A stretch of DNA of 37,246 nt, taken from contig CAITND010000059.1 in the NCBI GenBank assembly GCA_903893625.1, forward strand, positions 1-37,246. Direction: 5' to 3'. This stretch comes from an uncultured Oscillatoriales cyanobacterium. Lineage in GTDB: Bacteria; Cyanobacteriota; Cyanobacteriia; Cyanobacteriales; Microcoleaceae. The notes beneath the pieces are model-generated. The model made no database searches, had not been told where the DNA came from, and worked only from the letters and a program-made list of their open reading frames with translations. Shown here in pieces: positions 2,270 to 35,500 of this stretch (positions are counted from its first letter, which is position 1; each line of letters opens with the position of its first letter). The position numbers were made by a program, and so were the translations under genes.

Positions 2270-3115
2270 ATGAGTTTGTATGAATCTAACGATGACAATA
2301 ACAGTTCAGATGATAATAGTTTGGATAATAACAGTTCCGATCATTATTATCAAACGCTTCCAGTAACAGGTATTACCCCAACGACTTCTATTTATAATGA
2401 TAATAGTGGGGACAATAACAGTTCCGATCATTATTATCAAACGCTTCCAGTAACAGGTATTACCCCAACGACTTCTACTTATTATGATAATAGTGGGGAC
2501 AATAACAGTTCCGATCATTATTATCAAACGCTTCCAGTAACAGGTGTTACCCCAACGACTTCTACTTATTATAATAATAGTGGGGACAATAACAGTTCCG
2601 ATCATTATTATCAAACAACTCCAGTAACAGGTGTTACTTCAACGACAACTTTTGATAATCTGACTGGAACTCATTGGGATGATGTCTTACAAAATCCTCA
2701 ATATCAAGAGAATTTACTGGAAACTTTTGATGAGGAATATTATCGACAAAGCAATCCTGATGTTAATTTAGCCATCACTCAAGGAACCTTATCTTCGGGT
2801 TTACAACAGTATATTTATTCAGGAGAAACAGAAGGACGTTCACCGAATCAATTCTTTGATGAATCCTACTACTTAACTACAAATCCTGATGTAGCAAATG
2901 CCGTCCAAGCTGGTGCATTTAATTCAGGTTTTGAACATTTTGTGATGTCAGGTGCTGAGGAAGGACGAAACCCCAGCACCCAGTTCAACACAGGATTTTA
3001 TTTAGCACAGAATCCTGATGTTCTGCAAGCCATCAACAGTGGAGTTGTTAGCAATGCGTTTTCTCATTATACCCTACATGGTCAGTTTGAAGGTCGGGTT
3101 GCAACATCAATTTGA
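2270..3115 (+). CDS. Repeat protein: 29-residue tandem repeats plus three FDExYY-NPDV repeats
   Basis: The 281-residue product has three parts. Residues 1-18 are acidic and Asn/Ser-rich. About residues 19-128 hold four copies of a 29-residue Ser/Thr/Asn/Tyr-rich repeat (core DNNSSDHYYQTLPVTG), encoded by nearly identical 87-bp units. About residues 150-276 hold three ~42-residue repeats of the pattern FDExYYLxxNPDVxxA...G...HY...GxxEGR. That last motif is widespread in bacterial surface or extracellular proteins and some glycosyltransferases, but has no agreed function. There is no signal peptide or membrane segment, so export, if any, would need a leaderless route such as type I secretion. 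An AGGAG at 2256-2260 supports the ATG at 2270. It stands alone, between two hairpins. Real gene: confident; function: unknown. Confidence 0.8.
   Translation: MSLYESNDDNNSSDDNSLDNNSSDHYYQTLPVTGITPTTSIYNDNSGDNNSSDHYYQTLPVTGITPTTSTYYDNSGDNNSSDHYYQTLPVTGVTPTTSTYYNNSGDNNSSDHYYQTTPVTGVTSTTTFDNLTGTHWDDVLQNPQYQENLLETFDEEYYRQSNPDVNLAITQGTLSSGLQQYIYSGETEGRSPNQFFDESYYLTTNPDVANAVQAGAFNSGFEHFVMSGAEEGRNPSTQFNTGFYLAQNPDVLQAINSGVVSNAFSHYTLHGQFEGRVATSI
2324..2653 (+). repeat. 87-bp tandem repeat, about 3.8 copies
   Basis: Units start at 2324, 2411, 2498 and 2585. The first three are nearly identical at the DNA level; the fourth is truncated and diverged. The period is a multiple of three, so copy-number change would keep the reading frame. 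The lack of synonymous drift points to recent duplication. Confidence 0.9.
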
Positions 3116-7178: not shown

Positions 7179-8411
7179 CTACCCACACTGACTGGGAGTA
7201 CCAAGTACAGTGTCGGCTTCTGTAATCACGGGGGAGTGCCGCAACTTAGACTTTCGCCCCAGCTTTGGTCTTACATCCCCTCCTACAGCAGAGACGGCTG
7301 AACCTTCCGCCTTGATCATTCTGATCCCCTCCGCTCTAATATTGATCGCTGCGTTTCCATCACGGTCATGATGAGTACCACAATCAGGACAAGTCCATTC
7401 ACGAACATCCAATGGCATCTCACTCACTTGATAGAAACAATTAGAGCAGAGCTTGGAACTGGGGAACCATCTATCAATCTCAATCAACTTCCCGCCTTTA
7501 CCTTCTAGCTTATAAGCTAAGAAGTTAGTGAATGTTCCCCATCCCAGATCAGATATTGATGAAGCTAATTTAGGGTTACGAACCATGCCCTTGACATGAA
7601 GATTCTCTACGATGACAGCTTGGCTATCGCTGACCAACTTATAACTAAGTTTATGTAGAAAATCTTGCCGGGAATTGCTAACTCGTTCGTAGACTTTAGC
7701 AACAACTTTTCTATACCTATTTCTGGAATTACTCCCTTTTTGTTTACGCGCTAATTTTTTCTGCTTACGCTTGAGGTTTTTCTCATGCTTGGCAAGGTGT
7801 TTAGGATTATCGTATTTAGAAACCTTTTCACCATCAGTGACAATAGCAAAGTGCTTTAACCCTAAATCAATACCGTAAATCTTACCTTCTGAAAGAGTTG
7901 GATTTTCCCCTTCTACTTCTGTCAGGATAGATGCAAAATATTTACCTGATGGTGTTTTACTAATAGTTACAGTCTTGATTTTCCCTTCAATTGGTCTATG
8001 TATTTTGGCTTTGACTATCCCAATATTGCCGGGAAGTTTGACATTCCCATCTACAATCTTGACGTTTTGAGGATATTGGACAGACTGTTTACCCTGCTTA
8101 GATTTAAACTTAGGAAATCGGGCACGTTTCTCAAAAAAGTTTTTGTATGCTGTAGTTAGATTAAGTGTTGTAGCTTGTAAAACTTGGCTATAACAATCGG
8201 CTAACCATACCGTATCTTCAGCTTTTTTGAGTGTTGGGAGAAATGAATTGAGTGCTGCACGCCCAAGTCCTTTACCCGTCTCCTTATAAGTCTCAATAGA
8301 TTTATTCAGAGCATAATTCCACCACCAACGAGCACACCCAAAAGTTTGTGCTAGTTGTACTTCTTGTTCTTTTGATGGATATAACCGGACTTGCACAACT
8401 TTGTGTAACAC
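7179..8411 (-). CDS. tnpB: TnpB, RNA-guided nuclease of an IS200/IS605-family element (no TnpA)
   Basis: The 410-residue protein is a full-length TnpB. It has the N-terminal HTH-like region (CARWWWNYAL), an OrfB/RuvC domain with D182 (GIDLGLKHF), E269 (VIVENLHVKG) and D351 (DRDGNAAINI), and a zinc finger with C322, C325, C341 and C344. All catalytic residues are present, so it may be active. TnpB uses a guide RNA from the element's right end to cut the empty donor site. The GTG start at 8411 is fixed by a near-perfect Shine-Dalgarno AGGAGGTGAT at 8417-8426. No tnpA lies nearby, so it is a stand-alone or trans-mobilised element. The guide-RNA scaffold, if made, would lie at its 3' end (about 7130-7250), where TGGGTAGTTCACC appears on the minus strand. 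It separates scpA from the nucleotidyltransferase. Confidence 0.93.
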   Translation of the reverse strand: MLHKVVQVRLYPSKEQEVQLAQTFGCARWWWNYALNKSIETYKETGKGLGRAALNSFLPTLKKAEDTVWLADCYSQVLQATTLNLTTAYKNFFEKRARFPKFKSKQGKQSVQYPQNVKIVDGNVKLPGNIGIVKAKIHRPIEGKIKTVTISKTPSGKYFASILTEVEGENPTLSEGKIYGIDLGLKHFAIVTDGEKVSKYDNPKHLAKHEKNLKRKQKKLARKQKGSNSRNRYRKVVAKVYERVSNSRQDFLHKLSYKLVSDSQAVIVENLHVKGMVRNPKLASSISDLGWGTFTNFLAYKLEGKGGKLIEIDRWFPSSKLCSNCFYQVSEMPLDVREWTCPDCGTHHDRDGNAAINIRAEGIRMIKAEGSAVSAVGGDVRPKLGRKSKLRHSPVITEADTVLGTPSQCG

Positions 8412-11056: not shown

Positions 11057-11923
11057 CTAAATAATTGATCGATAAACAGGCTCCAGAAACCCTCTGAGGC
11101 GCGAAATAATATCCTGAAAATTTTCTGGGGCATTTTTAATTTCTTTTACCTTTAAAAAAGCAATCCAAGATTGTTGCTTTGCTTGAGAAAACTCTATTGT
11201 TAAACAATCAGGAATATCAGAAGGTATAGCCGTTTTTCTGCGATTAAAAGTGGCTTGAATAGCCTCAGAAAGATTGTTTTGATTAAAGACAAAATTTTCT
11301 GATAAATAGAAAATATCATAGAAATCTTTCATGCGACTATTGGCTACTCCTAATTTAACCATGGCTTCAAACTTTTCCGCTATGACAGTCTCACGATGAT
11401 ACATTCTCAGTTTTGGCGGATTAAATTCTTGTAAAATCAGGGGAAATGTTTCTATTTTAGCTTCAGGTACTACTTGATCTCCAAAACCTATATCGATTTG
11501 TGTAACTCCTTTAGATGTATGAATTTTCCAATCTATTTTAATTTGGACTCCTTCATAATCTTGATCTTCTTTAATTAATTTTCCTTTAATCTGATCAGAC
11601 AAAAATTTAACTCCATCTTCTTGAACAGAAGTAGAACAGATTTCTCGAAATATTTTTTTTATATGCTCAATATCAGGGTTGCCAAAACAGAGAAAATCTA
11701 AATCTTTAGTATGTCGATGGGGTTGACCACTCCATACAAAAAATAGAGTTGAACCTTTGAGAATAAACTGATCGCAATAATGAGATTGACTCAGACGATA
11801 CAATAATCTTTCATTAACATAACGAATTCGCAGACGATTAGCATCTTCTTTTCTCTCCTTAGCAAGTTTTAATAAATCTTGATTAACCTTTTGAGAAATA
11901 TTCGGTTTATTGGTTTGACTCAT
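11057..11923 (-). CDS. AbiEii/AbiGii-family nucleotidyltransferase toxin
   Basis: The 288-residue product has the AbiEii nucleotidyltransferase signature: KGSTLFFVW (Gly-Ser at 57-58) followed by the metal-binding TKDLDFL (D74, D76). It also has the downstream family motif EKFEAMVKLG...RMKDFYDI (about 192-212). AbiEii toxins are type IV toxin-antitoxin effectors; related MenT enzymes add nucleotides to tRNA acceptor ends and stop growth. The ATG at 11923 follows the antitoxin stop after 3 bases, so translation is coupled. All visible catalytic motifs are intact. Such systems protect against phage or stabilise the DNA that carries them. Confidence 0.9.
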   Translation of the reverse strand: MSQTNKPNISQKVNQDLLKLAKERKEDANRLRIRYVNERLLYRLSQSHYCDQFILKGSTLFFVWSGQPHRHTKDLDFLCFGNPDIEHIKKIFREICSTSVQEDGVKFLSDQIKGKLIKEDQDYEGVQIKIDWKIHTSKGVTQIDIGFGDQVVPEAKIETFPLILQEFNPPKLRMYHRETVIAEKFEAMVKLGVANSRMKDFYDIFYLSENFVFNQNNLSEAIQATFNRRKTAIPSDIPDCLTIEFSQAKQQSWIAFLKVKEIKNAPENFQDIISRLRGFLEPVYRSII

Positions 11924-11926
11924 AGT

Positions 11927-12526
11927 TTAAGATACAAGCAATTCCAGATAGGGACGCATAACACTTTGAACACGGCAAATTTTAGCATAATGCCAAATTT
12001 CATCGATTGTACAACGCTTTTCTTGCCAAGATTCTCGCAGAGCTTCAAGAGCAATATCGAGTCCAATTTTATTGCGAAATTTGAAACAGTCAGCGATTGT
12101 TTTTGCCAGACTATAAACTCTGACAGAGACTCCTTCAATAATATGTTCTTCAATCCCTGATTCTTTGGCAATACCAGACATATAAATAATTCGCAAAGGA
12201 ATCATATCCTCCTTTGGAGAACGTGCTTTTTGGTCAATTGCAAGCCATATTTGAAAGGGTACTTGAGTGGTAATTTGATAAAAACTTAGTGCTGACAACA
12301 AACAAATTACCCCATTTGGTACTCGCTTAGAGACTTCTGCAAAACTATGATTTTCTGTGATGTCTGCGTCTACTATGGTATAAATACCTCGTCCTGAACG
12401 AAGCAACAAACCTTGTTTTTCTAGTCGTTGCACATACTGACGAGGAATTCCCCATTTTTCTATATCTTTGGTACTGATGACTCCCACACAGCAATGGGTA
12501 TCCAGCACTTGTTGTCTCTGACTCAT
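11927..12526 (-). CDS. AbiEi-family antitoxin/autorepressor
   Basis: The product (about 199 residues) has an N-terminal winged-helix domain (VGVISTKDIEKWGIPRQYVQ and LLLRSGRGIYT) and the C-terminal AbiEi domain (VRVYSLAKTIADCF). It is the expected partner of the downstream AbiEii toxin: it antagonises the toxin without direct binding in characterised cases, and represses its own promoter by binding inverted repeats. I chose the ATG at 12526 because AGGTGAT lies about 8 bases upstream. An in-frame ATG ten codons earlier (12556) has its AGGAG directly adjacent, too close to use well. The upstream region holds a matching promoter and palindrome. Confidence 0.88.
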   Translation of the reverse strand: MSQRQQVLDTHCCVGVISTKDIEKWGIPRQYVQRLEKQGLLLRSGRGIYTIVDADITENHSFAEVSKRVPNGVICLLSALSFYQITTQVPFQIWLAIDQKARSPKEDMIPLRIIYMSGIAKESGIEEHIIEGVSVRVYSLAKTIADCFKFRNKIGLDIALEALRESWQEKRCTIDEIWHYAKICRVQSVMRPYLELLVS

Positions 12527-12614
12527 AATGGTATCACCTAAATTAATGAATGGCATCTCCTACAATTCCAGAAACTATTAAGGAACGTAGAAACTTACAT
12601 CTATATACCTAAAT

Positions 12615-15969: not shown

Positions 15970-16227
15970 ATGCCAGACCCCCTAATGTACTATGAGGATA
16001 CCTTTGTGGTATTAGAAACCCATCAACCCGAACAGTTTATGACGGTTGCAGAACTCCTCGAAAAGCTCAAATCCGTTTTATCTGAATCTCAAGACAATTT
16101 ACCCCAAGATTTACAACGCTTTACCACCCTGGACGCACAAGCTCAATATCTGATTGATACAAGCTGTGACCTGGATGTGGGTGCAGGTCAATATCTGCAA
16201 TGGTATGCGGTGCGGTTAGAAAAGTAA
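15970..16227 (+). CDS. Chlororespiratory reduction 7 (CRR7)-family protein
   Basis: The 85-residue product matches the CRR7 family in length and in its conserved start (PLMYYEDTFVVLETHQPEQF) and end (GAGQYLQWYAVRLEK). In plants CRR7 is needed for assembly of the chloroplast NDH complex; cyanobacterial members are widespread and thought to act on NDH-1-dependent cyclic electron flow, though direct proof is thin. It is a single-gene unit divergent from sir. The start ATG at 15970 is followed directly by the conserved motif; a Shine-Dalgarno is weak. Confidence 0.8.
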   Translation: MPDPLMYYEDTFVVLETHQPEQFMTVAELLEKLKSVLSESQDNLPQDLQRFTTLDAQAQYLIDTSCDLDVGAGQYLQWYAVRLEK

Positions 16228-16269
16228 CCCTCACCCCCTGACGCTGACCAAAAAAATGGGATACAAGCC

Positions 16270-16286
16270 TCGCCCTTCTAGGGCGA
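16270..16286. other. GC-rich hairpin in the crr7 to 16473 spacer
   Basis: TCGCCCT and AGGGCGA pair around a TCT loop and are followed by CTTTAG. It lies 43 bases after the crr7 stop. It could be a terminator or a decayed IS200/IS605 end hairpin. Nothing else was recognised in 16228-16472. Confidence 0.4.
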
Positions 16287-16472
16287 CTTTAGAAACCTAA
16301 AACTATTGGAATGTGCGATCGCGCAAGAAAATTAGCCCCAGGGTCATCGCCTCAGAATCCCAAATAGCCTGTACAAACCATCTGGGCTAAAGTGTAAATT
16401 GATTTTGACCCTAACTCAACTATTCACAGCGATTAGACTAGGAAATAACAACGGCTATACAGGAGAAGTGCA

Positions 16473-16775
16473 ATGCAACCGATGCGACAAGGTGACGTTC
16501 TTTTAATTCCCCGCACAGCAGAAGTTCAATATGATCATTATAAGCAAGACCATCTGGTGCTTGCCCTCGGTGAAGCCACCGGACACAAACACCAAATTTC
16601 AAACGGACAAGCAGAACTCTATAAACGGAATGGGACACTATATCTGCGGGTTATCTCGGAGTTTGCTACCCTCAGCCACGAAGAACATCATGCGCTGCAA
16701 ATTCCCAAGGGGGATTGGGCCGTGCGGATTCAACGGGAGTATGAACCCACAGGATGGCACCCTGTTGCTGATTAA
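16473..16775 (+). CDS. Small His-rich conserved protein (QGDVLL...ATGHxH...QREY)
   Basis: This 100-residue protein has no name I know. Conserved-looking features are RQGDVLLIP (5-13), GEATGHKH (33-40), SHEEHH (68-73) and IPKGDWAVRIQREYEP (77-92). The histidines at 38, 40, 69, 72 and 73 in a predicted all-beta fold suggest a cupin-like metal site. From memory, proteins with this QGDV/ATGHxH/QREY pattern occur in many bacteria beside DUF6745 proteins, and here the next intact gene carries a DUF6745-like tail. AGGAG at 16461-16465, 7 bases before the ATG at 16473, supports the start. It ends in GWHPVAD. Function unknown; a partner role with the LRR protein is inferred. Confidence 0.75.
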   Translation: MQPMRQGDVLLIPRTAEVQYDHYKQDHLVLALGEATGHKHQISNGQAELYKRNGTLYLRVISEFATLSHEEHHALQIPKGDWAVRIQREYEPTGWHPVAD

Positions 16776-16835
16776 TCTATTGTCCTAGACTCCACAGATC
16801 ATCGTGGGACGGGTGGCGAGTGCTGCAACGAGTGA

Positions 16836-16949
16836 TGCAGCCTGCGTTTTCATGTCTGGCGCGTTCCTGTTGATGTCACTTCCGCCCGTGAAGCCATTTG
16901 CTGGGCAAACTGGGATGTTGACCCGGAAGCTTTTGCAGTAAAAACCTAA
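16836..16949 (+). pseudogene. Remnant of a DUF6745-like C-terminus
   Basis: An open stretch of 37 codons (stop TAA at 16947-16949) reads HVWRVPVDVTSAREAICW, then ANWDVDPEAFAVKT. It aligns almost residue for residue with the last ~34 residues of the LRR protein downstream (HVLRVPPDLTSAHAAISW...). A TGA lies just upstream and there is no start. It is therefore a leftover or displaced tail of a related gene, located exactly between the His-rich protein and the LRR gene. Confidence 0.7.
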
Positions 16950-17042
16950 AAATTGCTGATTTGGCAATCATCCCACAACTTCCTTTTGGTGGGTTTGATG
17001 GCGATCGCTCTCCTAAACAAATTTGAACAACTGGAGAATCTC

Positions 17043-18632
17043 ATGAAACTAAATTTATCGCTAGATTTATCGGACAGAAGGCTTAAAAAACTTCCATCTG
17101 ACTTTTTTCAACAGCATACATACCTGGAAGAACTTAATTTAAACGGTAATCGTCTGACAGAACTACCACCGGAAATTGGTCAGTTGCACAGTCTACAAAC
17201 ACTTAATTTAGAGGATAGTTATCTGACAGCACTACCACCGGAAATCGGTCAGTTGCACAGTCTACAAACACTTAATTTACGGCATAATCGTCTGAGAGAA
17301 CTACCACCGGAAATCGGTCAGTTGCACAGTCTACAAACACTTTATTTATTCTTTAATTATCTGAGAGAACTACCACCGGAAATCGGTCAGTTGCACAGTC
17401 TACAAACACTTTATTTAGGGAGTAATTCTCTGACAGAACTACCACCGGAAATTGGTCAGTTGCAAAGTCTACAAACACTTGATTTATGGAGTAATCGTCT
17501 GACAGAACTACCACCGGAAATCGGTCAGTTGCACAGTCTACAAACACTTGATTTATCAAAATGTAATTCTCTGACAGAACTACCACCGGAAATCGTTCAG
17601 TTGCACAGTCTACAAACACTTGATTTATCTCGTAATTCTCTGGCAGAACTACCACCAGAAATCGTTCAGTTGCACAGTCTACAAACACTTGATTTATACT
17701 GTAATTCTCTGACAGAACTACCACCGGAAATCGGTCAGTTGCAAAGTCTACAAACACTTAATTTAGGGGGTAATTCTCTGACAGAACTACCACCGGAAAT
17801 TGGTCAGTTGCACAGTCTACAAACACTTAATTTACGCGATAATTCTCTGACAGAACTACCACCGGAAATCGGTCAGTTGCACAGTCTACAAACACTTGAT
17901 TTACAGGATACTTCTCTGAAAACACTTGATTTACAGCATACTTCTCTGACAGAACTACCACCGGAAATTGGTCAGTTGCACAGTCTACAAACACTTATTT
18001 TATTCTCTAATTCTCTGACAGAACTACCACCGGAAATCGGTCAGTTGCAAAGTCTACAAACACTTGATTTACGGTATAATTCTCTGACAGAACTACCACC
18101 GGAAATCGGTCAGTTGCAAAGTCTACAAACACTTGATTTACGGTATAATTCTCTGACAGAACTACCACCGGAAATTGGACAATTAAAAGACTTGAAGTAT
18201 ATTGATCTAAGGGACAATCCGATTCAGGATTTGTCAGCACTTGCTAATCATCCTAATCAAAACTTGGAAGTTTCTGTATTTGGGATGGAGAGATTTCGTC
18301 GGCAATATTGGACTCACCCCAGCCAGCGAAAAGCTGAGTGGTTATTGACGGAAAAAAATTCGGAAATTCGCCGACTGTTGATCCAAAAAATGGGCTATGA
18401 GCGCATCTGTAAGGAACTCCAAGCCATTGAACTTGACTCTTGGCGCGAATATACCTTACTTAAAATTGATGCTAAGGTGGATATTGAACCAATTCATCTG
18501 TTGAAAATGACTTGTCCGAGTACAAATCATATTCACGTTTTGCGGGTTCCTCCTGACCTCACTTCTGCCCATGCCGCCATTTCTTGGGTAAACTGGGACA
18601 TTGACCCCGAAGTTTTTGCAGTAGAATCCTAA
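17043..18632 (+). CDS. Leucine-rich-repeat protein with DUF6745-like C-terminal domain
   Basis: The 529-residue product starts with a diverged leucine-rich repeat (about 1-37). Fifteen 23-residue repeats follow, LPPEIGQLxSLQTLxLxxNxLTE, nearly identical to each other (about 38-393). Residues about 397-529 form a non-LRR domain with RFRRQYW, EIRRLLIQKMGYERI and the ending LRVPPDLTSAHAAISW...DIDPEVFAVES; I match this part to DUF6745-type proteins. There is no signal peptide, so it is probably cytoplasmic. I chose the ATG at 17043 because GGAG lies 6 bases upstream; a TTG at 16953 would add 30 unlikely residues. LRRs bind protein ligands, so this may be a recognition protein coupled to the conserved tail. 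It is probably cotranscribed with the His-rich gene. Function unknown. Confidence 0.82.
   Translation: MKLNLSLDLSDRRLKKLPSDFFQQHTYLEELNLNGNRLTELPPEIGQLHSLQTLNLEDSYLTALPPEIGQLHSLQTLNLRHNRLRELPPEIGQLHSLQTLYLFFNYLRELPPEIGQLHSLQTLYLGSNSLTELPPEIGQLQSLQTLDLWSNRLTELPPEIGQLHSLQTLDLSKCNSLTELPPEIVQLHSLQTLDLSRNSLAELPPEIVQLHSLQTLDLYCNSLTELPPEIGQLQSLQTLNLGGNSLTELPPEIGQLHSLQTLNLRDNSLTELPPEIGQLHSLQTLDLQDTSLKTLDLQHTSLTELPPEIGQLHSLQTLILFSNSLTELPPEIGQLQSLQTLDLRYNSLTELPPEIGQLQSLQTLDLRYNSLTELPPEIGQLKDLKYIDLRDNPIQDLSALANHPNQNLEVSVFGMERFRRQYWTHPSQRKAEWLLTEKNSEIRRLLIQKMGYERICKELQAIELDSWREYTLLKIDAKVDIEPIHLLKMTCPSTNHIHVLRVPPDLTSAHAAISWVNWDIDPEVFAVES
17154..18221 (+). repeat. 69-bp coding tandem repeat, 15 units
   Basis: Fifteen units run from 17154 to 18221. 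Thirteen are exactly 69 bp, one has an extra codon (unit 6, about 17499-17570), and one carries a 30-bp partial duplication (LKTLDLQHTS, after unit 11). Blocks such as CTACCACCGGAAAT and CAGTCTACAAACACTT are conserved even at synonymous positions, so the array was amplified or homogenised recently. Variation is concentrated at the exposed x positions of the LxLxxNxL strand. Confidence 0.95.
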
Positions 18633-18696
18633 AATTACTCTTTCCCCCATAAGCCTGGAGGGCGGGTTGTCACCCCCCGGCCCTGTTCCCTATGAT

Positions 18697-19242
18697 TTAA
18701 CCTTCAGCAATTAAAGCCACATCAATCTGTTCCTCTTGGGGTTGAGTGATTTGGACTTTTACACCAGGGCCAAAGAAATTAGTGATTTTATCTTGTTTTT
18801 GTTGCCAAGTGCTCAGGGGCATAAAGGGAGAATAAAACTGTAAAATCAGTGTATAAGACCCATCAATAATCGTTTCTCGGATACCTTGGAGGGAGGGACG
18901 TTCTTCGCGGTTAGGGCTGAGTCCTAGACGTTCTAAGACATCGGATAAATGGGCTTCTTGGCCATAGCGATAACGGGTGACATCTTGGCGAACTTGATTT
19001 TGAGTTTCTGTAGCTTGTTGCTCTCGGAGGGCCAGAACCTCAGAGGATGTCGCTTGAGTAAAGGGTATGGGCTTCAATTCTGCTGCTTTAAGGGCGAGTC
19101 CTCCCAACAATAGGGGAATTCCATAGAAAAATCCAGCTAAGTTCAATGTGGCATTATCAGCAAAATAAGCAGCAAAACCTACTACAGTTAAGATTCCACC
19201 GACCACTAAACCTAGTGCGCCCAGAGAAGTTTGACGTAACAT
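18697..19242 (-). CDS. DUF2854-family membrane protein
   Basis: The 181-residue product begins MLRQTSLGALGLVVGGILTV and has two predicted transmembrane helices (about 8-28 and 37-52). A soluble C-terminal domain of about 120 residues follows (SDVLERLGLSPNREERPSL, FYSPFMPLSTW). This is the DUF2854 family of cyanobacteria and plastids, function unknown, likely thylakoid or plasma membrane. I chose the ATG at 19242 because the conserved start motif begins there; a GTG three codons upstream (19251) is possible. It is convergent with the LRR gene and lies next to the left end of a tnpB element. Confidence 0.85.
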   Translation of the reverse strand: MLRQTSLGALGLVVGGILTVVGFAAYFADNATLNLAGFFYGIPLLLGGLALKAAELKPIPFTQATSSEVLALREQQATETQNQVRQDVTRYRYGQEAHLSDVLERLGLSPNREERPSLQGIRETIIDGSYTLILQFYSPFMPLSTWQQKQDKITNFFGPGVKVQITQPQEEQIDVALIAEG

Positions 19243-19297
19243 ATAAATCACTCATTAGTCCGCGAAAATTCATAAGAAAAGGATGGGAGTGTGGAAA

Positions 19298-20738
19298 CTC
19301 AGTGTCTTTAGACCTGAGAGGAAACACGACGCAGGGGAATCTATTCCCCTTGAATATTTATTGAATCATGATACCATAAAAAAGAGGTCAACAAAGTCGT
19401 GATGGTAGAGTCAATGGCTAAAACAAATAAAATGATGGGAGTGCAGCAAGTTTTACTTTCTCCCGACTCTGAAACCCATGCGTTGCTAGAATACCTTTGT
19501 CAACAATCAGGCAAATTGTACAACACAGGAATTTATTTTGCCCGTCAAACATTTTTCAAGACAGGTAAATTATTAACAGGAAAGTTTGATTTAGCTTTTG
19601 AACCATCGGTATCAAAATCTTTGTTGGCACAATCAATGCCATCAACACCAATGCAACAAACCTTGATGTCAGTAGCGGAATCCTTCAAATCTTTTAAGAA
19701 TCTGAGGGATTTGTATACCAAAGGGCAACTACATTTTCGACCTAAACCTCCTGGCTATCTCAAGGGTTCTAAACTGTTTAAAGTTGCCTATCCCAATTCA
19801 GGAGGACAAAAACCAACACTGATTAATGGTCAACTTAGATTCTCTCTAGGATTAACGGTTAAAAGATGGTTTGGGGTATCTGAATTTTTTCTATCGATGC
19901 CATCAAATCTTGATTATTCCAATATCAAAGAGTTTACAATTCTACCTAAGAATGGTGCTTTTTATCTGGAAATGTCCTACGAAGTAGAAAAACAAAAACA
20001 TGATTTAGACATCAATCAAGCCTTATCTATTGATTTAGGTACTGCCGATAACTTAGTAGCTTGTGTTGATACTTTGGGAAATTCCTTTTTGATTGATGCC
20101 AGATATTTGAAAGCTAAAAATCAACTTTGGAATAAAAAAGTATCAACCCGTAAAGAAGGTAAATCCCAAGGGTATTGGGATAATTGGCTAGACCGTATAA
20201 CTCGTAAACGCAATCACCAAATGCGTGATGGGATTAATAAAGCAGCGAAACTAATTGTTGATCACTGCCTCAAGCATGGCATTGGAAACCTAGTAATTGG
20301 TTGGAATGAAGGATTTAAAATCAATGCCAACTTGGGTAATTTGAATAATCAAAAATTTGTTCAAATGCCTTTAGGTAAACTAAAATCCCGTGTCAAACAA
20401 CTCTGTGATTTGCACGGGATTAGATTTATTGAAACCGAAGAAGCCTACACTTCAAAAGCTAGTTTCTTAGAGGTCGACTCCCTGCCCAAATACGGTGAAA
20501 AACCGATAGGGTGGAAAGCATCTGGGAATAGAATTAAGCGTGGACTTTATCGGACGGCTGATGGTTTTGTTGTTAATGCCGACCTTAATGGTGCAGCTAA
20601 TATTTTCAGAAAAGTATCGGGAAGATTAGGTATATCGCTTAATCAACTCAGTAGACGATCTTTGGCAATCGTAGCGAGAATTAAGTTAAATTAATTCTGT
20701 CCGCAGAATCTCAGTGGCTTCAGCCCTGAGAGTGTCAA
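19298..20738 (+). mobile_element. IS200/IS605-type element carrying only tnpB, with matching end hairpins
   Basis: Hairpins of the same design lie on both sides of the tnpB gene. The left is CTCAG-T-GTC-TTTA-GAC-CTGAG (19298-19318) and the right is CTCAG-T-GGC-TTCA-GCC-CTGAG (20710-20730). Both continue with AG. TCAA, the right cleavage tetranucleotide known from IS608, follows the right hairpin at 20735-20738. Such subterminal hairpins are the recognition sites of Y1 transposases (TnpA). No tnpA is present, so movement would need one in trans. Exact outer ends are not fixed. Confidence 0.75.
19399..20694 (+). CDS. TnpB-family protein lacking the zinc finger
   Basis: The 431-residue product has the OrfB/TnpB RuvC core: D212 (LSIDLGTADN), E304 (VIGWNEGFK) and D395 (VNADLNGAANI). 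The usual CxxC...CxxC zinc finger between the second and third motifs is absent; the region reads EEAYTSKASFLEVD instead. This belongs to a distinct TnpB clade seen in cyanobacteria (motifs YTSKASF, IKRGLYR, NADLNGAANI). The catalytic acids are intact, so RNA-guided nuclease activity is plausible. The start is a GTG at 19399, with an ATG right after (19402); AGAGG lies about 11 bases upstream. A guide RNA would be expected to overlap its 3' end and the right hairpin at 20710-20730. Confidence 0.88.
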   Translation: MMVESMAKTNKMMGVQQVLLSPDSETHALLEYLCQQSGKLYNTGIYFARQTFFKTGKLLTGKFDLAFEPSVSKSLLAQSMPSTPMQQTLMSVAESFKSFKNLRDLYTKGQLHFRPKPPGYLKGSKLFKVAYPNSGGQKPTLINGQLRFSLGLTVKRWFGVSEFFLSMPSNLDYSNIKEFTILPKNGAFYLEMSYEVEKQKHDLDINQALSIDLGTADNLVACVDTLGNSFLIDARYLKAKNQLWNKKVSTRKEGKSQGYWDNWLDRITRKRNHQMRDGINKAAKLIVDHCLKHGIGNLVIGWNEGFKINANLGNLNNQKFVQMPLGKLKSRVKQLCDLHGIRFIETEEAYTSKASFLEVDSLPKYGEKPIGWKASGNRIKRGLYRTADGFVVNADLNGAANIFRKVSGRLGISLNQLSRRSLAIVARIKLN

Positions 20739-22951: not shown

Positions 22952-23716
22952 ATGATGCAGCCATCTTCGATCACAACCGATTCCAATCGACCGTTTCTAA
23001 CTTGGCAACGCATTACAGACTGGGCGCAGGAACATTATCGTTGTCGAAGTTTTAGTAAAGATGAGCGAATTCCGGCTCGTCCAGGGTTACTGTATTTAGT
23101 CCAACGGGGTGCAGTGCGATTAGTGGGTAGTGCTCAACTGGAATACGCCAAGGGCAAACCCAATTCCAAACCCCGGAATCGCAATTTAGATGAAGCCTTT
23201 TTAGGTTTTGTCGGTGCAGGTCAACCCTTTGAACTCGTTGCCCAGTCTCCCTTTAGCCTGCAAGCCTATAGTCACGCCGATGATACCACCGTGTTATGGA
23301 TGTATTGGCATGATTTAGATAACTGGCCCCATTTTCGTCGGGAAGTCCTCGATGCTTTTCGGTATCAACATCAACGCAAACTACTATGGTTAAGCACATT
23401 AGGTCAACGTCGTACCATTGACCGACTCTTGGGATTCTTGACCCTATTGATTGAAGAATACGGGGAATATTATACCAGTGGCAGTGGGGAAGACGGGTTT
23501 AAAGGCTATTGTTTACCCTGGTCATTAACCCACTCTCAAATTGGCAGTGCCATCGGTTCCACACGAGTTACCGTCACCCGCCTGATGGGAAAACTCCGTC
23601 AACAAGGCTTGGTTTATACTCAGGACGATAATTTAATTTGTATTCCGATTGAATCCGAAGACCCCAACCAAACCCTTGATTTAGAAGAAGAAGATACAGG
23701 CTTTGAGGAGGAATAA
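22952..23716 (+). CDS. Crp/Fnr-family transcriptional regulator
   Basis: The 254-residue product has a cyclic-nucleotide-binding-like beta-roll (about 35-130). A dimerisation helix follows (about 130-165), then a winged-helix DNA-binding domain (LPWSLTHSQIGSAIGSTRVTVTRLMGKL, of which SIGSTRVTVTRL-type residues about 200-211 form the recognition helix). An acidic tail (DLEEEDTGFEEE) ends it. The HTH resembles NtcA, but the length and an insert (KGKPNSKPRNRNLDEAF) rule out NtcA itself. The effector is unknown; the cAMP-pocket residues are not evident. It starts at ATG 22952 or the next codon, and its TAA overlaps the first base of a heptamer repeat. It is convergent with hmpF. The 270-base upstream region (22680-22951) shows TATAAAAT but no firm promoter. 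Confidence 0.85.
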   Translation: MMQPSSITTDSNRPFLTWQRITDWAQEHYRCRSFSKDERIPARPGLLYLVQRGAVRLVGSAQLEYAKGKPNSKPRNRNLDEAFLGFVGAGQPFELVAQSPFSLQAYSHADDTTVLWMYWHDLDNWPHFRREVLDAFRYQHQRKLLWLSTLGQRRTIDRLLGFLTLLIEEYGEYYTSGSGEDGFKGYCLPWSLTHSQIGSAIGSTRVTVTRLMGKLRQQGLVYTQDDNLICIPIESEDPNQTLDLEEEDTGFEEE

Positions 23717-23870
23717 TCAGTTATCAGTTATCAGTTATCAGTTATCAGTAAAAAATAAATTCTAATCTGTTGATTAAGTCGGAGTTTCTAAACTGTTTAC
23801 TATTGATCAGTTATTGGTCAACTCTTACACTGATTACTGATGACTGATTACTGATGACTGATTACTGATA
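23716..23870. repeat. Heptamer (STRR-like) repeat element filling the crp-hmpF spacer
   Basis: ATCAGTT-type heptamers run five times from 23716, beginning on the last base of the regulator's stop codon. Their inverse (ACTGATT/ACTGATG) runs six times at 23829-23870. The two blocks can pair as a long stem. The right block enters the hmpF coding region. The inner edge AACTCTTACACTGAT (23820-23834) occurs in inverse at 32382-32396, showing that both spacers are copies of one dispersed element. Confidence 0.88.
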
Positions 23871-31800: not shown

Positions 31801-32354
31801 TAGGGGAGTCGTCCCAAGAAATTTCTAAAATTGTGGGGCTGATTTCTCAAATTGCTTCCCGAACTAACTTACTCGCCTTAAACGCTAGTATTGAGGCAGC
31901 ACGGGCCGGAGAAGCGGGTAAGGGATTTGCGATCGTTGCTGATGAAGTCCGACAGTTAGCGGATAAGTCGGCGAAATCTTTAAAAGATATCGAACAAATT
32001 GTGATGCAAATCCAAAGCCAGACTAACACGGTGATGATGGCAATGTCCCAAGGTCATCAACAGGTGATTGAGGGGACTCGTCTGGCGGAACTAGCGAAAC
32101 GCGCTCTCGATGACATTATTCAGGTGACGAACCGCATTGACGTGCTGGTGCGTTCAATTACGGCGGATACTGTTGAACAAAACGAAACCGCCCGCGCCGT
32201 CGCCCAGGTGATGCGAGCCGTTGAACATAGTGCCCAAGAAACTTCTCAAGAAGCCCAAGGTGTCTCCAGTGCGTTAACTAAACTGGTCGGTGTGGCGCGA
32301 GACCTCCTGACCTCAGTGGAACGCTTTCGCGTTGATGCTTCTGAGAAGGGTTAA
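28890..32354 (+). CDS. hmpD: Methyl-accepting chemotaxis protein (PilJ-type, HmpD) with TPR and long disordered N-terminus
   Basis: The 1154-residue receptor begins with a TPR-like helical region (about 1-95, [28 protein letters not shown]). About 590 residues of acidic, low-complexity sequence follow, dotted with short DLE/FDxDD motifs. Two transmembrane helices (about 690-708 and 731-750) flank only a ~20-residue loop, so there is essentially no periplasmic sensor. A HAMP-like segment (about 750-805) and the MCP signalling domain (tip about 975-1030, [20 protein letters not shown]) end it. Sensing is therefore probably cytoplasmic. A GC-rich 36-nt palindromic repeat is inserted in frame at 30575-30610. 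GGGG lies 10 bases before the ATG. The TAA overlaps the start of a heptamer array. Confidence 0.93.
30575..30610 (-). repeat. 36-nt GC-rich palindromic coding repeat, copy 1 (inside hmpD)
   Basis: Read on the minus strand it is CCCCCCCTGCC, 12 variable bases, then GGGGTTGGAGGGG. The second copy at 33539-33574 (plus strand) is also exactly 36 bases and shares about 29 of 36 positions. It encodes [12 protein letters not shown] in the disordered part of HmpD. It is much more G+C-rich than its surroundings. Confidence 0.8.
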
Positions 32355-32550
32355 TCAGTTATCAGTTATCAGTAATCAGTTATCAGTGTAAGAGTTAATA
32401 GTTAATAGTTTAGGGGCAGGTTCTTTGAGATCTTTTTTAATTAATCACTCACGTTGATGAACTTGCCTTTAAAGACTGATAACTGATAACTGATAACTGA
32501 TAACTGATAACTGATAACTGATAACTGATAACTGATAACTGATAACTGAT
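32354..32550. repeat. Heptamer (STRR-like) repeat element filling the hmpD-hmpE spacer
   Basis: ATCAGTT-type heptamers (five units) start on the last base of the hmpD stop codon. At 32475-32550 the inverse unit ACTGATA is repeated ten times in perfect tandem, plus six bases, ending exactly at the hmpE ATG. ATCAGTGTAAGAGTT (32382-32396) matches the inner edge of the crp-hmpF spacer in inverse. The arms can form a long hairpin in DNA or mRNA. Confidence 0.92.
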
Positions 32551-35500
32551 ATGCAACTTGAACAGCAACAACGGATCATGGGCTATTTTATTGAGGAGGC
32601 AAAAGACCACCTCAATACGATTGAACAGGGATTACTGAATCTACAAACAACGATTGAAGATCCAGAACTGCTCAATGAAGTCTTCCGAGCCGCCCACTCG
32701 GTAAAAGGTGGAGCCGCGATGTTGGGACTGAATAGTATTCGACAAACGGCTCACCGATTAGAAGATAGTTTTAAAATTCTCATAGAAAACCGTCTTCCGA
32801 CTCAATTTGTTGATCAACAATTAGAATCATTATTTTTACAAGTTTTTGATACCTTACAAGCCTTGATTGATCAATTATCAGGGCCCTATGGGTTAACAGA
32901 AGAAGCCGCCAGTGCAATTTTGCAGGATGTTGAGCCTGTTTTTGAAGCGTTAAATTATCATATTAAAAATGTCGTGCAACAACAGGGGATGAACAACCGA
33001 CCTCCTGAACGTGAGCCACTGACCTTCGTGCCTGCAAGTGTCGTACCAGAGCCTTCATGCAAGGATATGCCACCGCGTCCAAAAGAAACCCCGGTTAGCA
33101 GTGCCAAAGACCTAGTATTTCGCAGCGATGTTCCTGAACGGTTGCGGGAAATGTTACAACAGTTCAAACAATCAGAAACACCCCAAACTCGTCAAGCATT
33201 AATTGAAAGTTGTCGGAGTTTAGCGAGGGCGGGAGAGCTATTTGATTTACCCCATTGGGTTAAGTTTATTGAAGCACTAGAACAAACGATCGCTAATCCT
33301 GATAATACTTATCGAAGCTTGGCTCCCGTCGTTATTAAATCAATTAAGGAAGCCCAAGAACTTGTTTTAGTGAATCGAGATAGGGAAATTGTCCTCACAG
33401 AGCAGATTAAAAGCCTTTTACCTAAACCCGTACCTCCCGCCAAAACGCCTCAACCTAAAACTCATAAAAAAGATATCAAAGAGGGTGGGACAGGGAACAG
33501 ACAAAATACGCCGAAAGCTTCAAGTCAGAGCAAATCCTCCCCCCCTGCCGCCCGTGCACGGGGGGTTGGGGGGGCATTAGGATCGGGTGCCGGTAAATCA
33601 GGAGGAGCCACTGCTAAATCCAGTCAATCGAAGTCTGGGAATGCCAAGCAGAAATCCTCATCGAGTTCTTCGACTCTCACTAACCCCTTGTTAGATGCTA
33701 ACTGGTCAGATTCGGCGACAAATCCCAGTAACACTCCCAGCCGTTTACAAAATGGCCCAGAAATTACCCCGGAAGAATATAACAGCCTCAGAGATTTATT
33801 TGAAGGTTTGGATGAATGGGATCATGAGGCTGCTGATGAGGGAACAACGGAAACCCTCACATCTGCGGTGATGGAAGCTGAGGCAATGGAGGGGGACTTT
33901 TTCGATTTGCTGGAGGAACAACAAACCGGGTTAAACCCAACAGAAGCAAAAGGCTCCAAAGCATCGCACCAGAGGCTCAAACCGGGAGAAAAATCGGCTG
34001 CGACTTCTGCCGTTACCTCTAATGTTGATGATGATCTTGCCAGTTTCTTCGATAACCTCAGTGATGCGGACTCCGCCCTACCAGAAACCGCAACCGTGAC
34101 ACCGCCCACGATCATAGAAACAAGACAGGATGAGCCCGTACAAGGTTTTGATGATTTCTTTGATGAATTGTTAGGGATTAATTCCGATTTTTCCGGTACG
34201 GTAGACGGGGTTTCATCGGTTTCATCGACGGGTTCTGTATCTACTTCCCCTGAACAAATCACCGATTTATTAGAGGATGCAGAAAGTTTAGATGAACTGT
34301 TTGACCAGTTTGACCAGCAAACCCAATTCGTTGTGGAGACACAGCCCTCGCCAACGGTGAATGCTGAGTCCGATTCCTTGGTGTTGGAAACCACCCCGGA
34401 GGAAGATTGGTTTGAAGATCTCTTACAAGGTGAAATAAGTACAGAAGCAGACGGATCAGCCCCTTCTACTTTAGATGATCTGATGCACTTGGGGAATCAG
34501 CAAGCTGCATACGCGGCGGGAAGTTTAGAAGTGTTAACCCCAAGGGTATCCCAAAACTTGGAAACGATGGCTAAAGCGAAACCCAGCCTAGAATTACCGG
34601 ATGATGATTTTGCGAGTTTAGATGCTTTACTCAATCAAGGGGAGGTCAACGGTCAGCCCTCAACTTCTGTAACGATGGTAGAAGAGGAGGATACTTTCTC
34701 CAATTTGGATCAACTTCTACAGTCACCGGTTGCTGAACCCTCAAAGAAAAAAACGAATGCTTCTAAGAATCCTAGAGCCGAGAGTGGGCGACTCCCCTTG
34801 GCCACCGAATCACCATCCTCAGAGGAGGATTCGGAATTTACAGAATTAATCCGATTAATTGAGGATACTCCCCCTCGGTCTCGTTCAGCATCGGTTCCCA
34901 GAGGGACGTTTGCGAAACCCATTGCTGAACCCATTGTCAAGGTTCCAGTGAAACAACTGGATAACCTCAGTAACTTGATGGGGGAACTGGTGGTTAACCG
35001 CAACAGTTTGGAACAAGACCAAGAACGGATGCGACAATTTTTGGATAACTTACTGCATCAGGTTTCTCTGTTGGGGGATGTGGGTCAACGGATGCAGGAT
35101 TTTTATGAGCGATCGCTCTTGGACATTTCCCTACTGTCCCACCAAACATCTCGTCGCAAACCCTTGTGGTTTTCGGACAGTACCTCGATTCATGATGATG
35201 ATCCCAATAATGATTTAGACTCAACGGAACTGGATCGGTTTACGCCCTTCCATACCCTGTCCCAAGAGATTATTGAGTTAATTGTGCGGGTACGGGAGTC
35301 GAGTGCAGATATTGGATTTTTAGTCGATGGAGCGGATCAAGTTACCCGGGAGTTGCGACGGATTACAACAGCATTGCAAGAAGGGTTAAATCGCTCTCGG
35401 ATGGAACCTTTTGGTATTGAAGCGGATGCCCTGAAACGTCCCGTGCGGGATATTTCGATTAAGTGTGGGAAACAGGCGGAGTTATTTGTTGAGGGTCGAG

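Follow-up and report, generated by a model that had tools for sequence, protein, structure and literature searches.

What do two adjoining genes of a cyanobacterium do together when one encodes a small protein with clustered histidines and the other a long array of leucine-rich repeats (LRRs)? The question arises on contig CAITND010000059.1 of an uncultured Oscillatoriales cyanobacterium, whose entire 37,246 bases, from a 5.83-Mb draft genome in 277 contigs, form the stretch of DNA analysed here (the window). The genes of the window, CRR7 for example, and its relatives also mark it as cyanobacterial. The first gene (16473..16775, plus strand) is an open reading frame (ORF) opening with ATG for a 100-aa protein, here called QGDV; the second (17043..18632, plus strand) encodes a protein in which the LRRs are joined to a conserved tail (LRR-DUF6745). 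An original prediction, made from the sequence alone, had proposed a conserved module of these two genes, with the LRRs as a fast-changing recognition arm and the tail and small protein as a common core, as in defence or surveillance systems. We find that QGDV and DUF6745 proteins are a near-obligate pair, and the evidence supports a core that stays constant and a repeat arm that changes fast. We put at about one in two the probability that they form a recognition module of two genes, so far undescribed, that is gained or lost as a whole.

Both proteins proved to be as originally described: the 100-residue product contains GEATGHKH and SHEEHH and lies just before the LRR gene, which carries 15 repeats and a conserved tail. 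The second ORF as listed (16953-18632) opens with TTG, an unlikely start; ATG 17043, picked by eye and preferred because a GGAG stands a few bases 5' of it, is the probable one and gives 529 aa. The repeats (17163..18230, plus strand), marked by LPPEI and 13 of them 23 aa long, bring the ORF to E 2.5e-87 against Pfam LRR_8 (287 bits, cut-off 27). Behind them stands the constant tail (18324..18629, plus strand), which matches DUF6745 (PF20530) at 31.0 bits when the whole ORF is searched and at 35.1 bits on its own (gathering cut-off 27). This match covers profile positions 100-201 of 206 only and so falls short of the whole domain, the N-terminal half of DUF6745 being missing in the window protein, which has LRRs where that half would be. 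The tail also matches phrog_31813 (E 1.1e-13), and neither the Pfam nor the PHROG entry holds a function; residues 4-100 of QGDV match phrog_27831 (E 4.1e-16), a small phage protein without library function, whereas the window copy is chromosomal. By eye, the LRR-DUF6745 protein starts without a signal peptide, so it is probably cytoplasmic. Predicted structures with unrelated housekeeping folds would have counted against the original prediction. AlphaFold2 (AF2) models were obtained for QGDV (predicted local distance difference test score, pLDDT, 86.4; seven strands, all-beta) and for the region 18201-18629 (pLDDT 81.9; helices, a four-stranded sheet and a helix); a housekeeping fold was not found, and fold comparisons of both models gave no clear match of any kind, a cupin-like metal protein fold for QGDV included.

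Relatives of QGDV in genome and viral contigs were found by the peptide pattern LAxGE[VLA]TGH, whose first residue was a variant when genome contigs were scanned. H40, H69 and H72 are invariant in alignments of 90 and 99 rows; H38 is invariant too in the 90-row alignment, but it formed part of the search pattern, and since relatives were picked by that pattern, the conservation of its residues, H38 included, is partly by construction.

Across 194 cyanobacterial genomes, QGDV occurs in 18 and PF20530 in 18, and both occur together in 16 where 1.7 would be expected (p 2e-19), a result that excludes a lack of co-occurrence outside the window's genome. At 17 of the 19 QGDV places in these genomes, DUF6745 is encoded on the same strand no more than 2.5 kb away, 16 times downstream and once upstream. 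In wider scans, we confirmed at least 555 QGDV relatives in genome contigs and 432 in viral contigs and examined the best 80 of each with our own profiles. DUF6745 lies within 500 nt of QGDV in 73 of the 80 bacterial loci, always downstream, bearing out the statement in the original prediction that these families adjoin each other in distant bacteria, and in 69 of the 80 viral loci (60 downstream, 9 upstream); among the misses, 2 of 7 bacterial and 8 of 11 viral loci have 821 bases or fewer left on the contig. Record titles of the QGDV relatives include Herpetosiphon, Deinococcales, cyanobacteria, Planctomycetes, Verrucomicrobia, Methylobacterium and relatives, and Polyangium, and plasmid records extend the pair to Streptomyces and Nonomuraea. 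As judged from these sequence matches, and with phyla that we take from the organism names, the pair is present in at least six phyla besides cyanobacteria, and in phages. The protein distances of QGDV and DUF6745 are correlated (r 0.79 over 124 loci, against a maximum of 0.094 in 500 permutations), which co-inheritance alone could give.

The two partners differ in copy number. In the window's family (61 genomes), QGDV is present in 35 genomes, every one of which has DUF6745; it occupies a single place in 34 of them and two places in G228, and the matches of G226 and G245 are partial. DUF6745 occupies 1-7 places per genome, 89 in total including fragments, against 36 QGDV places. The tail and the small protein are the constant part, in support of the common core originally proposed. 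In G223, one QGDV gene is followed on the same strand by an LRR-less DUF6745 gene (407 codons) and then by three LRR-DUF6745 genes (638, 827 and 1285 codons). By eye, cyanobacterial and phage DUF6745 proteins mostly consist of an N-terminal part, a variable middle and a constant tail, and examples from Deinococcus, Herpetosiphon, planctomycetes, Verrucomicrobia and Methylobacterium have an LRR-like part before the tail. A toxin-antitoxin-like pair, with the product of the first, small gene counteracting that of the second, larger gene, would fit the gene order in most loci (small gene first, larger directly behind), the overlap of annotated ends in two Deinococcus plasmids and the single DUF6745 place in each of the seven genomes of the family that have DUF6745 without QGDV. 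A single QGDV facing as many as seven DUF6745 places does not suit such a pair, nor does a diversifying LRR part joined to a tail that does not diversify; a Pfam scan of both proteins found no toxin or nuclease domain, the fold match being uninformative on this point. We regard a toxin-antitoxin arrangement as very improbable.

The LRR array is the part that changes fast, as had been predicted. Arrays in three genomes of the genus hold 15, 13 and 24 repeats and have 1, 1 and 3 exact units in common, and the coding DNA beside them is 93-99% identical (199/213-211/213 before, 456/468-463/468 after). We compared 46 of the 52 repeats of these three strains, leaving out 3 of odd length and the last of each array. 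Amino-acid differences occur in 85% and 84% of pairs at repeat positions 17 and 18, with synonymous differences in 1.4% and 0.2%; in 66%, 55% and 54% of pairs at positions 15, 20 and 22; and in 35-41% at positions 6, 9 and 23. Positions 1, 2, 4, 11, 14, 16 and 21 have zero differences, synonymous ones included. Taken over all 23 positions, the ratio of nonsynonymous to synonymous differences (pN/pS) comes to 2.64; it rises to 6.48 at positions 15, 17, 18, 20 and 22 and is 1.07 at the remaining 18. The 12 repeats of the window by themselves give 2.02, 4.30 and 0.57. Because the five positions were chosen after their variability was seen, only the whole-repeat values, 2.64 and 2.02, are free of that choice. 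The variable positions lie mainly on the face of the LxLxx strand, which is exposed in the LRR structure, and recombinational homogenisation should not spare just the variable codons. Exposed LRR positions diversify, and the scaffold and tail are nearly fixed. In two G223 arrays, which belong to another LRR class, positions of this face again rank with the most variable ones.

Unequal crossing-over commonly enlarges LRR arrays, and the exposed positions of such arrays are the least constrained. Both facts favour an ordinary LRR protein whose repeats drift under weak constraint beside an incidental neighbour gene, as does the pN/pS near 1 at the 18 less variable positions. Whole-repeat values of 2.64 in the three strains and 2.02 in the window speak against drift, and the partner found within 500 nt in the great majority of bacterial and viral loci speaks against an incidental neighbour; this reading, already disfavoured, is the least probable of those weighed here. 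As to the source of the array, a 138-base piece of it matches only arrays in three genomes and nothing in the other seven of the genus, as far as a draft assembly allows. The window's genome has 12 RVT_1 places; the lack of a repeat copy anywhere else in the genus speaks against a retroelement-type template, and we consider a diversity-generating retroelement unlikely as the source.

Turnover also affects the locus as a whole. In G240, G157 and G242, crr7 and the gene at 18697-19251, which flank the module in the window, are syntenic and the module segment is absent between them (blastn), which marks 16227..18690 (no strand assigned) as a segment gained or lost as a unit; in G239 the site falls at a contig edge, and G235, G236 and G238 have different DNA downstream of crr7. 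Between the QGDV and LRR-DUF6745 genes of the window lies a scar, a remnant of 35 codons (16842..16949, plus strand) from the 3' end of another DUF6745 gene, with 64% identity to the tail of the present protein. Of 10 genomes of the genus, three carry both the pair and the remnant (the window's own, G237 and G241), and the remnant is best read as the leftover of a first DUF6745 gene like that of G223. G237 and G241 also have an even shorter DUF6745 tail end between crr7 and QGDV (translated by eye). At that place, 5' of QGDV, the window has a hairpin-like 24-mer (16269-16292), present in one copy.

Phages carry the pair as well. In a phage collection, both proteins are matched in nine Microcystis-phage records and one spring-water siphovirus, with the pair read in three, and a Mycobacterium abscessus prophage has QGDV and DUF6745 by profile. 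In Microcystis phage LMM01, the module has replication genes on one side and a uracil-DNA glycosylase gene on the other, and where neighbours could be guessed (by eye unless annotated), the phage pair stands near replication, recombination or terminase genes. In-frame DNA tandem repeats precede the tail in 45 of 50 distinct phage DUF6745 proteins (38 of 372 control ORFs; p 8e-32) and in 1 of 50 bacterial ones (17 of 468 control ORFs). In this survey, DUF6745 ORFs more than 85% alike were counted once, those with fewer than 100 aa before the tail or more than 1500 aa were dropped, and the controls were mechanical ORFs of the same loci rather than proven genes. DNA-level repeats are thus a phage trait and not general in bacterial members, and the near-identical LRR DNA of the window and its close kin sets them apart from other bacterial members. 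A 12-nt unit occurs in 24 of the 45 repeat-bearing phage proteins, in 6.5 to 41 copies. At the protein level, the phage arrays are built of 3- or 4-residue units (SQVW/SQVG-type, for example) in about 6 to 73 copies, long ones being found in the ORFs L217 5553-6944, L221 4721-6298 and L167 1095-2837 and in most of the viral DUF6745 ORFs surveyed; we know of no structure for such arrays. On two viral contigs (L192 5332-5718, L193 5537-5923), a QGDV gene without DUF6745 is preceded by a small protein with an HxT-type motif that by eye resembles 2H phosphoesterases.

The 432 viral relatives, the close pairing in 69 of the best 80, the position in LMM01 and the tandem repeats of the phage proteins would all suit a phage-borne anti-defence or exclusion module, domesticated by bacteria, whose variable repeats mimic or bind host proteins. 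Chromosomal copies are widespread, however, with four in a row in G223, and they carry LRRs rather than phage-type repeats; we find this origin quite unlikely.

The bacterial neighbourhood suggests another function. At least three STM4011-4015 genes lie near the pair in 17 of the 80 bacterial loci, in several phyla (L084, L088, L101, L103, L104, L106, L107, L109, L111, L112, L114, L118, L119, L120, L125, L130 and L131), and in none of the 80 viral loci. Three or more genes of this cassette also stand near the pair in five of the six plasmid loci read, out of eight hits; four of the plasmid loci were used in building the STM4011-4015 profiles, yet they are also annotated as such. NCBIfam (STM4011-STM4015; NF038073-NF038076, NF006067) labels two proteins of the cassette as radical-SAM proteins and one as a hydrolase, which Pfam places near sulfatases. 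STM4014 bears a weak resemblance to ATP-grasp proteins that stays under the cut-off, and STM4015 resembles LRR proteins, with two of three members scoring over an LRR cut-off. This company, and the fact that one QGDV serves many repeat proteins, favour a maturation module in which the tail docks modifying or folding machinery and QGDV, possibly a metal protein, acts on the repeats as the substrate, alone in phages and with the radical-SAM enzymes in other bacteria. Against it, STM4011, the one cassette gene searched for there, has no match in the window's genome; STM4011 exceeds its cut-off in 3 of 194 cyanobacteria, at sites away from the pair; the viral loci lack the cassette; STM4015 and the DUF6745 tail show no profile match; and a mere substrate would not be expected to diversify exposed LRR residues. 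Maturation is the most plausible of the rivals and still unlikely. In the literature searched, hardly any text concerns the cassette: none joins any two of STM4011, STM4012, STM4013, STM4014 and radical SAM, STM4015 occurs in one paper, and STM4013 figures in one paper, in a sigma-54 binding table. DUF6745 finds no mention in that literature, a search with subscription papers and preprints outside its range.

The defence label has fared less well than the rest of the original prediction. PADLOC-DB 2.0.0, which holds systems described by 2023, gave no family for either protein at E up to 1. Among 87 proteins within 5 kb of the pair (of 112 selected from 216 candidates, with no control set), PADLOC matched 166 families at E up to 1e-5; among the 25 of these families listed, PDC-S03 has 3 members, subtilase and IetS have 2 each, and the others 1, including a type I specificity subunit, a DRT reverse transcriptase, Csx1, mad5 and a Cas12f/TnpB-like protein. 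The 25 of 193 Pfam families inspected for the same proteins are mostly housekeeping, with Uma2 in 3. The defence-type hits in these lists are scattered among mostly housekeeping families, with 1-3 members of 87 each and without a control. With the frequent phage carriage added, the defence label goes beyond these results; the conserved module with a fast-changing LRR arm and a common core is well supported by the pairing, the LRR variation and the constant tail and QGDV.

Other neighbours and features of the window can be noted briefly. A cluster of VWA-domain proteins (one member Pfam-checked) occurs near the pair in 21 of the 80 bacterial loci (for example L076 9145-11016, minus strand), and a D. 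ficus plasmid locus has a VWA gene in place of STM4011-4015. In the window, an IS605 OrfB/TnpB-like gene downstream of the module (19399-20694) matches OrfB_IS605 and Cas12f1-like_TNB, and a second was recognised by eye at 7179-8411. Two adjoining ORFs on the minus strand (11057-12556) resemble an antitoxin and nucleotidyltransferase pair of AbiEi/AbiEii type. Heptamer tandem arrays of ATCAGTT/ACTGATA type lie at 23716-23749, 23829-23869, 32354-32387 and 32475-32551, those at 23716 and 32354 starting on the final base of an ORF, and an 87-bp repeat in about four copies (2310-2646) lies inside ORF 2270-3115.

Recognition in a wide sense appears to be the best reading of the pair. In the recognition module, QGDV would be the single-copy constant member and the DUF6745 proteins its multi-copy variable partners, as seen in the window's family, each joining a constant tail to an N-terminal or repeat part that can be exchanged and that in the window consists of LRRs. 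The concave face of the LRRs may bind a changing ligand, for example a protein of a phage, of a rival or of a partner. The tail may dock on QGDV, and the conserved histidines of QGDV may hold a metal and furnish a common output or maturation step.

Several observations weigh against this reading. QGDV occurs without DUF6745 in two of the 18 cyanobacterial QGDV genomes (G119 and G113) and in loci L102, L117, L135, L140, L141, L186, L192 and L193. Conversely, DUF6745 occurs without QGDV in 7 of the 42 DUF6745 genomes of the window's family, at one place each (several of these matches being partial or with stops), and on plasmids of Nostoc HK-01 and Aulosira laxa, judged from the plasmid sequences alone. 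The remotest QGDV relatives, in G113 and G162, lack H38 and H69. The repeats are not mutually independent, and pN/pS is accordingly given without a p-value; exposed positions vary in most LRR proteins, and in the G223 arrays weak constraint is possible because scaffold codons differ synonymously there too. Finally, because the phage repeats are short tandem units and not LRRs, ligand binding by the repeat part cannot be generalised to the family.

The libraries and papers searched contain no system with a named function that would take in either gene or the pair; a functional test could place them beside a known kind. The repeats align with the type III LRR effectors XopAC, XopAE and XopL of NCBIfam (E down to 8.5e-73), with scores below the cut-offs (245.6 of 450, 234.6 of 600 and 193.7 of 500) and best stretches within the repeats. 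Lamprey variable lymphocyte receptors (VLRs) and plant nucleotide-binding LRR receptors (NLRs) are hypervariable LRR receptors, and the window protein likewise has a near-constant LRR scaffold, diversified exposed residues and a changing repeat number. Unlike them, the bacterial system of the window has no NTPase, signalling or membrane part that we could find, and its partner is a small all-beta protein; we do not claim membership.

More tentatively, and with odds well short of even, the pair may represent a new class of recognition system in which a single-copy, perhaps metal-holding QGDV core and the DUF6745 receptors that it serves move between phages and bacteria of no fewer than seven phyla, their repeats (LRRs in bacteria, short tandem units in phages) diversified by turnover and positive selection. 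If so, bacteria and phages would share a receptor-like system, outside the defence and family libraries searched, that combines a constant two-protein core with a hypervariable binding arm. This would make sense of two PHROG families that lack a name and of a domain of unknown function, one of them with relatives in 432 viral contigs, and would connect them, in a way open to test, with the STM4011-4015 radical-SAM cassette, which has been little studied.

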